This document shows, in pieces, positions 18,434 through 20,584 of a stretch of 44,065 bases of DNA. The notes under the pieces are model-generated. The model did no database searches, had not been told where the DNA came from, and saw only the letters and a list, made by a program, of their open reading frames with translations. Position numbers and translations under genes: made by a program. This stretch comes from Syntrophomonadaceae bacterium (lineage in GTDB: Bacteria > Bacillota > Syntrophomonadia > Syntrophomonadales > Syntrophothermaceae): positions 1-44,065 of the forward strand of contig JAAYAC010000166.1 in assembly GCA_012719535.1 (NCBI GenBank), in the 5' to 3' direction. Numbering within the stretch: the stretch's first letter is position 1; each line of letters opens with the position of its first letter.

Positions 18434-19459
18434 TCAAGGCCCCTGCACGGTCGATGAAATGTCACCAGCACCTGTTTTCATCCTCCTGGCCAGGACCAGG
18501 CAGCCGAGCAGCCCGGACCGGTCACCCAATGCCCCTGGCAGTACCTCAACCGTCCTCCCCAAAACCGGCATGACCCGGCGCCGCATCTCTTGTCGGGCGG
18601 GACCGAGCAGCATTTCGCCCAGGCCGTTGGCAACTCCTCCTCCTATAACTATGGCGGCGGGGTTTAATACATGCACCAGGTTGGCAAGCCCTATCCCCAG
18701 GTAATAGCCTGCCCGGCGCACGATATCCAGTGCCTCTCCGTCCCCGTTCATAGCCGCTGCGCCTACCGTCCTGGCGGTAATATCTCCGCCCCGGTTCCCA
18801 GCCAGCGCCAACAACGCTTTGCCCCCGCCCCTGGCAATCAATTCCCGGGCCCGCGCGGCTATCGCCGTTCCCGAGGCGAGAGTCTCGAGACATCCCTGCC
18901 CTCCACAGCTGCATCCGGGACCGCCATCGGGAATTATGACCATATGCCCGAACTCCCCGGCTCCCCCCGATACCCCGTGGTACACGCCGCCGTTGATGAT
19001 GATACCACCCCCGATACCGGTACTGACGGTAACATACAATAAGTCCCGAAACCGATGCTGGAATCCATACTCGTATTCTCCCAGCCCGGCCAGGTTAGCA
19101 TCATTATCAACATATACGGGAACCCGAAAATGCCTGGCCAGCCTGTCAGCTAGGGGGAAGTTGCGCCAGCCCAGGTTGGGGGCCTGGCGAACAATCCCGG
19201 TTTCCGGGTCGAGTGGCCCCGGGGCCCCTACCGCTATAACAGATAGTTCCCCTTCGCCAGCCCCGACCTGAGCAAGAAGTTGCCTGAGCAGGCCGGCCAT
19301 TTTCTCGACCACCTCGTCGCCGCTTTTGCCGGCGGGGGTCTCGGTTCTGGCTTCCGCCACCAGGTGGCCGTGCTGGTCCGCGATGCCGGCCAGTATTTTG
19401 GTCCCACCCAGGTCTATCCCTGCTATTAGGGAAGCAAGGGGACGTTCTTTTTGCTTCAT
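18434..19459 (-). CDS. ROK-family sugar kinase, probable glucokinase
   Basis: Phosphorylates a hexose, probably glucose, with ATP. ROK hallmarks: phosphate-1 motif IAGIDLGGTKILAGI, AVGAPGPLDPETG, sugar-binding VYVDNDANLAGLGEY, STGIGGGIIING, GEFGHM, and the zinc-binding CSCGGQGCLE. There is no N-terminal DNA-binding helix-turn-helix, so an enzyme rather than an NagC-type repressor. Length 341. It begins three bases after the DUF362 gene with a weak site (GGGTG). The first nine or so codons coincide with a REP-like palindrome (19431-19457), and no alternative ATG, GTG or TTG exists before the conserved domain. Glucose specificity is inferred. Confidence 0.88.
   Translation of the reverse strand: MKQKERPLASLIAGIDLGGTKILAGIADQHGHLVAEARTETPAGKSGDEVVEKMAGLLRQLLAQVGAGEGELSVIAVGAPGPLDPETGIVRQAPNLGWRNFPLADRLARHFRVPVYVDNDANLAGLGEYEYGFQHRFRDLLYVTVSTGIGGGIIINGGVYHGVSGGAGEFGHMVIIPDGGPGCSCGGQGCLETLASGTAIAARARELIARGGGKALLALAGNRGGDITARTVGAAAMNGDGEALDIVRRAGYYLGIGLANLVHVLNPAAIVIGGGVANGLGEMLLGPARQEMRRRVMPVLGRTVEVLPGALGDRSGLLGCLVLARRMKTGAGDISSTVQGP
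19431..19457 (-). repeat. REP-like palindrome within the 5' end of the ROK kinase gene
   Basis: Arms GAAGCAA (19431-19437) and TTGCTTC (19451-19457) pair perfectly around a loop which on the minus strand reads AAAGAACGTCCCC, nearly the AGAACCGTCCCC loop of the 15977-16013 element. The stem begins at the G of the kinase ATG. Confidence 0.6.
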
Positions 19460-19462
19460 TTT

Positions 19463-20584
19463 TTACACCCGGATCAGTTCGTAGTCCATGGTACCCAGCC
19501 CGATGGCCTGCGCGTGTACCAGTTGGTCACGCCATTCAATGCCGGGGTGAACCCCCTTGAACTTATCTTCTCCAGCCGATAGCGCTTCTATGATTGACCC
19601 GGCCTGGGAAGGCAGGCGGTTGATTGCCTCGGCACAGGCGTTGTCCAAGGCTACCGGGTCCAGGGAGGCGAAAATGCCTACGTCCTGGGTTATGGGGATA
19701 TCGTTGAATCCGTAGCAGTCACATTGTGGGCTGATGTCCATGACAAATGACAGGTAACCTACTTTCCCCGGCTTGTTCGCGACCACCCCCAGGGCGTACT
19801 CCGCGGTTTTCTCCTGTATGGTTTTGGGGGTGGTTTTCCAGCTTATGCCAATGCTATCGAACACGCAGGTCACCACGCACTCCCCACAGCCATAGCATTT
19901 CTGCGTGTCGATAACCGCCCTGGGTTTTTCCCCTGGTTTTCTCTCCACCATGGTGATGGCCCCCACCGGGCACCATTCGGAACACCTTGCACAACCGGTG
20001 CACTTTTCTTCCTTAACGCGAGGCTGGACATCCGAATGCATCTGCTGTTTGCCGCTGCGGGAGCCCAGTCCCATGCCCAGATTCTTGATAGCTCCCCCGA
20101 TGCCGGTCAACTCGTGGCATTTGAAATGGGTCATGGCAATAATGGCATCAGCATGGAAGGCGGCACTGGCAATGTGAACTTCTTTGAAGTGCCGGCCGTC
20201 GATCTTTACCTTTACATAATCCCTACCGTTCAGCCCGTCGGCTATGACCAGCGGCGCTCCCACCACTGCATAATCAAAACCGTTGATAATGGCTGTTTCC
20301 AGGTGGTCGACGGCATTGGCCCGGGTGCCCCGGTACAGGGTGTTGGCATCGGTGAGGAAGGGCTTGCCCCCCAGCTTCTTGACTCTTTCCACCACTCTTC
20401 TCACGTACGGGGGCCGGATGTAAGCCAGGTTGCCAGCTTCCCCGAAATGTATCTTGATGGCCACCAGGTCCCCTGAGGAAATCAAACTATCGAACCCAGC
20501 TCGGTCCATCAATCTTTCCATCTTGTCCAGCAGGCTGCGATTCCCCTTGGTCTGTAGGTCGGTAAAGAATACTTTAGCCGACAT
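19463..20584 (-). CDS. DUF362 protein with two [4Fe-4S] ferredoxin motifs
   Basis: An iron-sulfur protein of unproven function. The N-terminal DUF362 part runs to about residue 185 (IKIHFGEAGNLAYIRPPYVRR; MTHFKCHELTGIGGAIKNLGMG), followed by two ferredoxin motifs: CTGCARCSEWCP and CYGCGECVVTC. The C-terminal part returns to DUF362 sequence with GYLSFVMDISPQCDCYGF and GIFASLDPVALDNA. Length 373. ATG start after AAAGGGGAG, one base behind the HAD stop. Likely electron-carrying, in a HAD-DUF362-ROK run, but the grouping does not reveal a role. Confidence 0.88.
   Translation of the reverse strand: MSAKVFFTDLQTKGNRSLLDKMERLMDRAGFDSLISSGDLVAIKIHFGEAGNLAYIRPPYVRRVVERVKKLGGKPFLTDANTLYRGTRANAVDHLETAIINGFDYAVVGAPLVIADGLNGRDYVKVKIDGRHFKEVHIASAAFHADAIIAMTHFKCHELTGIGGAIKNLGMGLGSRSGKQQMHSDVQPRVKEEKCTGCARCSEWCPVGAITMVERKPGEKPRAVIDTQKCYGCGECVVTCVFDSIGISWKTTPKTIQEKTAEYALGVVANKPGKVGYLSFVMDISPQCDCYGFNDIPITQDVGIFASLDPVALDNACAEAINRLPSQAGSIIEALSAGEDKFKGVHPGIEWRDQLVHAQAIGLGTMDYELIRV

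Follow-up and report, generated by a model that had tools for sequence, protein, structure and literature searches.

REPs are usually regarded as extragenic. In the described systems of REP/REPIN and RAYT (TnpA-REP), a short palindrome occurs in tens of copies, some arranged as inverted doublets; inverted copies flank the RAYT gene, and others sit at gene ends, where the first G of the repeat can complete a TAG stop (PMC3116915, PMC3733652, PMC8266576). Some REPs lie within ORFs, with just over 10% at the coding end and a larger number at the NH2 terminus, and both TAG stops derived from REPs and repeat-encoded peptide tails have already been described (PMC3733652). Di Nocera et al. (2013) suspected that many N-terminal REPs are in fact extragenic, given the start codons found downstream of them (PMC3733652). 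The three Firmicute terms that we looked for in the REP survey were absent from it.

A second class of mobile palindrome is also found in coding sequence. Rickettsia palindromic elements (RPEs) are about 150 bp long, reside in genes and lengthen the proteins concerned by tens of residues; N-terminal RPE insertions are reported to be expressed (PMC10969869, PMC3733652).

Here we describe, in an anaerobic bacterium, a ROK-family glucokinase gene whose start overlaps a REP. The case adds a clean instance to a habit already known from REPs and is no new kind of system. As in the REP-decorated proteins (PMC3733652), a peptide end is encoded by the repeat, whereas here no start lies downstream and the edge of the repeat itself bears the start codon. 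The locus therefore lends itself to a clean test of whether cells produce N-termini encoded by a REP. As with RPEs, a selfish palindrome would be read in frame as part of a host protein that is conserved in its other parts; the likeness is one of behaviour, and the sizes differ, 29 bp and 9 residues here versus about 150 bp and tens of residues for RPEs. We think it highly probable that a REP inserted at this locus, that it replaced the start region of the kinase gene and that it is translated as MKQKERPLAS.

The palindrome at the kinase start

The window, by which we mean the whole stretch of 44,065 nucleotides (44 kb) that was analysed, contains the following features at this locus:

18434..19459, minus strand: ROK-family glucokinase, 341 aa, glucokinase motifs intact, fold from residue 11
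19430..19458, plus strand: REP-type palindrome GGAAGCAAGGGGACGTTCTTTTTGCTTCA, 29 bp, overlapping the glucokinase start
19430..19456, minus strand: nine repeat-encoded codons AAG CAA AAA GAA CGT CCC CTT GCT TCC (KQKERPLAS, residues 2-10)
19457..19459, minus strand: kinase ATG, the only in-frame start codon
19463..20584, minus strand: DUF362 4Fe-4S protein, directly upstream and sharing the kinase frame

The kinase gene is present in a single copy, and no second homologue was found in the genome. Its product matches PF00480 (ROK) with 239.7 bits over residues 13-326 and retains the conserved positions of the family. The match to TIGR00744 (ROK glucokinase), at 243.7 of 260 bits, falls just under the cut-off, so glucokinase is the best but an uncertified call for its substrate.

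The original prediction placed at the G of the kinase start codon a hairpin with a 7-bp stem, and this part holds in every detail. The arms (19431-19437 and 19451-19457) are complementary at 7 of 7 positions around a loop of 13 nt, and on the minus strand the first base of the kinase-side 5' arm is the G of the ATG (19459-19457). The palindrome is thus where it was claimed to be, but it is slightly bigger than was thought: 29 bp, from 19430 to 19458, which brings residue S10 (TCC) into the element as well.

Is the repeat translated? The TAA stop of DUF362 (19463-19465) shuts the kinase frame one codon ahead of the ATG. From that stop the in-frame triplets read TAA AAA ATG, then the nine repeat codons, then CTA ATA GCA GGG. 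There is no alternative in-frame ATG, GTG, TTG or CTG before the conserved GIDLGGTK motif, which bears out the earlier statement that no ATG, GTG or TTG exists there. Because every other usual start is eliminated in this way, K2-S10 can be read as translated repeat, as had been proposed for the first nine or so residues; unless an abnormal start codon is used, KQKERPLAS would by elimination be the product of the repeat.

The original prediction turned on a comparison of N-termini, in which the same residues in relatives without the repeat would speak against insertion. A KQKERPLAS-like N-terminus occurs in none of the homologues examined. In the order the motif is usually preceded by 6-7 residues (LRELVV, MQELII, MNREVIA), compared with 13 here. 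The kinase of the same-family genome G002 begins MRLGRGWMA and that of G003 begins MPMPARVVV. The same-family genome G001 has a long N-terminus of 19 residues, MKVAPRENGSPLKARSWIV; we considered a repeat origin for it and rejected the idea, since the segment occurs only once in G001. That long, unique sequence indicates that the N-terminus of the kinase varies without a repeat.

A structure model built with 21 own-locus sequences has a mean pLDDT of 92.4. Residues 1-10 are unstructured in the model (mean pLDDT 57), and the first strand begins at residue 11, immediately past the end of the repeat. In the closest solved glucokinase, 3vgk, residue 3 aligns with residue 11 of the kinase. The N-terminal extension is thus predicted to be disordered and, with the fold beginning at residue 11, the repeat would have lengthened the kinase solely outside the fold. 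For annotation this is a caution: a variable, disordered N-terminus may be a mobile element.

The repeat family and its RAYT gene

The repeat occurs once in the window, so its nature as a repeat can be demonstrated only from the whole genome, a draft of 2.49 Mb in 203 contigs. There its core matches 37 places with three or fewer mismatches, while the reversed control matches none. From 36 distinct aligned copies we built the consensus GGAAGCAAGGGGACGWTCTTTTTGCTTCC (W at position 16). The kinase copy is identical to it at 28 of 29 positions, the sole mismatch being C to A at position 29. The flanks of the 36 aligned copies are mostly A on the 5' side and TT on the 3' side, and beyond these bases nothing is conserved. 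In both loop variants the repeat (29-32 bp) is free of stop codons in all six frames.

Pairs of copies in opposite orientation, 34-46 bp apart, form inverted doublets on contigs C137, C203, C56, C146, C184 and C142. A RAYT gene is itself bracketed by copies:

L037:1383-2268 (contig C24 of this genome, G000): RAYT gene between two inverted REP copies, CDS 1468-2238
L037:1383-1411, plus strand: REP copy 5' of RAYT, about 57 nt before its ATG
L037:2241-2268: shortened inverted REP copy, just past the RAYT stop

The RAYT protein (256 aa) scores 81.3 bits against NF047646, whose curated cut-off is 80. The upstream copy shares the GTTC loop variant with the kinase copy, and the L037 RAYT locus is the probable source of the family. 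Contigs C95 and C151 carry two more genes for Y1 transposases, one an open frame of 369 aa, the other IS200-like and 139 aa long.

The palindrome had been called REP-like, a description that the roughly 37 dispersed copies, the inverted doublets and the RAYT gene flanked by inverted copies justify. The inverted doublets and the flanked RAYT mark a REP/REPIN system; with a dispersed short palindrome, close inverted doublets and a RAYT between its cognate repeats, the family is, by its sequence organization, a RAYT-associated REP/REPIN system. It differs from REPs tagged with GTAG or CGTC. Neither motif stands unpaired at the foot of the stem in the flanks of the 36 copies; CGTC is present on one strand in the loop, outside the stem foot, and the asymmetry between strands comes from G-U and A-C pairs.

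How far does the family extend? The comparison genomes belong to the same family and order, none of them to the same genus, and no empty site came to light. Among 61 genomes of the order, 33 contain matches to the repeat; the same-family genomes G001 and G002 contain none. A search of a named genome collection yielded no close relative, its matches being mostly Gemmatimonadota at about 40% identity.

History of the junction and initiation of the kinase

The pairing of DUF362 and ROK genes is kept in relatives, several of which have the two adjacent. In the compact ones 32-34 nt separate the stop of DUF362 from the kinase motif, and this stretch carries a strong Shine-Dalgarno, a start and five codons. 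Here the distance is 42 nt, of which the repeat takes up 28-29. These lengths argue that the original Shine-Dalgarno and first codons were replaced and not displaced. The original prediction had allowed either for domestication of the element as the start of the protein or for replacement of the original start; the latter fits, in that nothing here corresponds to the Shine-Dalgarno and first codons of the relatives, and the repeat seems to have supplanted the kinase's former ribosome-binding site and opening codons. Another species, represented by genome G039 (L063), also has a REP-like palindrome in the DUF362-ROK interval, just upstream of its ROK start, though a different one, reading GTGTCAAGGGGACGGTTCTCCTGACAC on one strand; the junction seems to have been struck by palindromes more than once.

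We infer the insertion history, the loss of the original start, the translational coupling and the origin of the ATG as follows. A single REP of the RAYT-associated REP/REPIN family would have inserted at the junction of DUF362 and the glucokinase gene, replacing the original ribosome-binding site of the kinase along with its first codons. Translation would then start at the ATG on the edge of the repeat and read through the stop-free element, so that MKQKERPLAS precedes the older fold. GGGTG, the Shine-Dalgarno that is left, is the second weakest of 23 (-6.3 kcal/mol against the anti-Shine-Dalgarno). With so weak a site and the DUF362 stop 3 nt upstream, re-initiation coupled to DUF362 is likely, and kinase initiation probably depends in part on termination of DUF362.

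Where did the ATG come from? Its G belongs to the repeat, its T is the lone departure from the consensus and its A is either flank or consensus position 30. In 25 of the 36 copies the triplet at this place is AGG, the rest having other NGG or odd triplets; ATG occurs only at the kinase. A search of 63 genomes of the order returned 69 occurrences of the AGG-ended sequence AGGAAGCAAAAAGAWCGTCCC, in 17 genomes, and one of the ATG-ended sequence ATGAAGCAAAAAGAWCGTCCC, at the kinase gene. A single base change at the end of the repeat, from AGG to ATG, may therefore have created the start codon. On this account the insertion removed the ribosome-binding site and start of the kinase, the substitution restored initiation, and the start codon and first ten residues alike are REP-derived, a possibility to which we give slightly less than an even chance. 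We found nothing relevant on repeat-made start codons in the literature. Since a single substitution turns AGG into ATG and the repeat is free of stops, such elements are well placed to become the starts or ends of genes.

The ATG could instead be ancestral, the REP having landed just behind it, perhaps through GAAG microhomology (ATGAAG versus GGAAGC), and replaced the codons that follow; the repeat would be translated all the same. The G001 kinase starts with ATGAAG 5 nt past the DUF362 stop, much as the present ATG stands 3 nt past it. Such a landing requires, however, a repeat trimmed to the point at which its final bases fall on an ATG. The kinase copy also fits the partly conserved consensus positions 30-31 (TT) past the changed base, an argument against an ancestral ATG that is weak because the flank is a run of T. 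We rate this variant, too, at a little under one half, and the choice between a repeat-made ATG and an inherited ATGAAG is near even. Under a different reading the REP is confined to the leader, with kinase translation beginning beyond it at a non-canonical codon. Many N-terminal REPs elsewhere were judged extragenic on the basis of shorter homologues (PMC3733652), and a start right before LIAG would suit the length of some ROK kinases. Yet only CTA, ATA and GCA stand between the repeat and the motif, with no ATG, GTG, TTG or CTG, and by inspection the repeat holds no Shine-Dalgarno-like stretch ahead of these codons; we regard a leader-only REP as extremely unlikely. Hardly credible at all is the view that the palindrome arose by chance or reflects an artefact of assembly or strain. 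The genome is a draft in 203 contigs and repeats are prone to misassembly, but the frame is open throughout the repeat, from an ATG seen in no other copy, and a family of 37 dispersed copies against a control of zero excludes chance.

The hairpin might also regulate the kinase, as a brake on its translation or as an RNA switch: the stem overlies the start codon, and a 41-nt segment taken on its own is more stably folded than shuffled sequences (z -4.9). In its 101-nt context, however, the fold is no better than that of shuffles (z +0.57). The strands are also unequal, the repeat folding with -13.4 kcal/mol on the strand with G-U pairs and with -6.4 on the kinase mRNA strand, where A and C are mismatched. 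The region from -12 to +13 has an openness of 0.72, compared with 0.25-0.64 in 22 homologues, making it the most accessible of the 23, and a ribosome that terminates DUF362 would sit on the hairpin. The idea of a hairpin that covers the start codon and reduces translation finds no support, given the weak mRNA-strand fold and this open start region. On the accessibility of the start region and the strand asymmetry we reject a translational brake, and we think regulation by brake or switch very unlikely.

Repeat copies at other genes

In the loci read around the repeat copies, many ORFs that overlap REP copies match no family and are apparently spurious. At two genes the repeat seemed to supply a TTG start, thiamin pyrophosphokinase (L030) and a UvrD-like gene (L008). 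We rejected both, as each has an ATG with its own Shine-Dalgarno a short way downstream, which places the REP in the leader. Two proteins end in repeat:

L023:1487-2434 (contig C38, G000): SPFH/Band 7 protein, C-terminus of repeat-encoded GKQGDDLSAS followed by SGS
L009:3-1544 (contig C5, G000): large membrane protein, C-terminus of repeat-encoded RKQGDDLFAS followed by LGGAER

A 90%-identical G001 homologue of the SPFH/Band 7 protein can be aligned no further than residue 303, the point at which the repeat starts, and relatives have short, unrelated tails. The G003 homologue of the membrane protein aligns only to residue 500 of 513, the repeat running from residue 498. In an S24-type regulator and a sigma-70-family factor (L025 and L032) the G of the TAG stop is the first base of the repeat. 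With repeat-encoded C-termini and repeat-completed TAG stops together, the capture of gene ends is recurrent in this genome.
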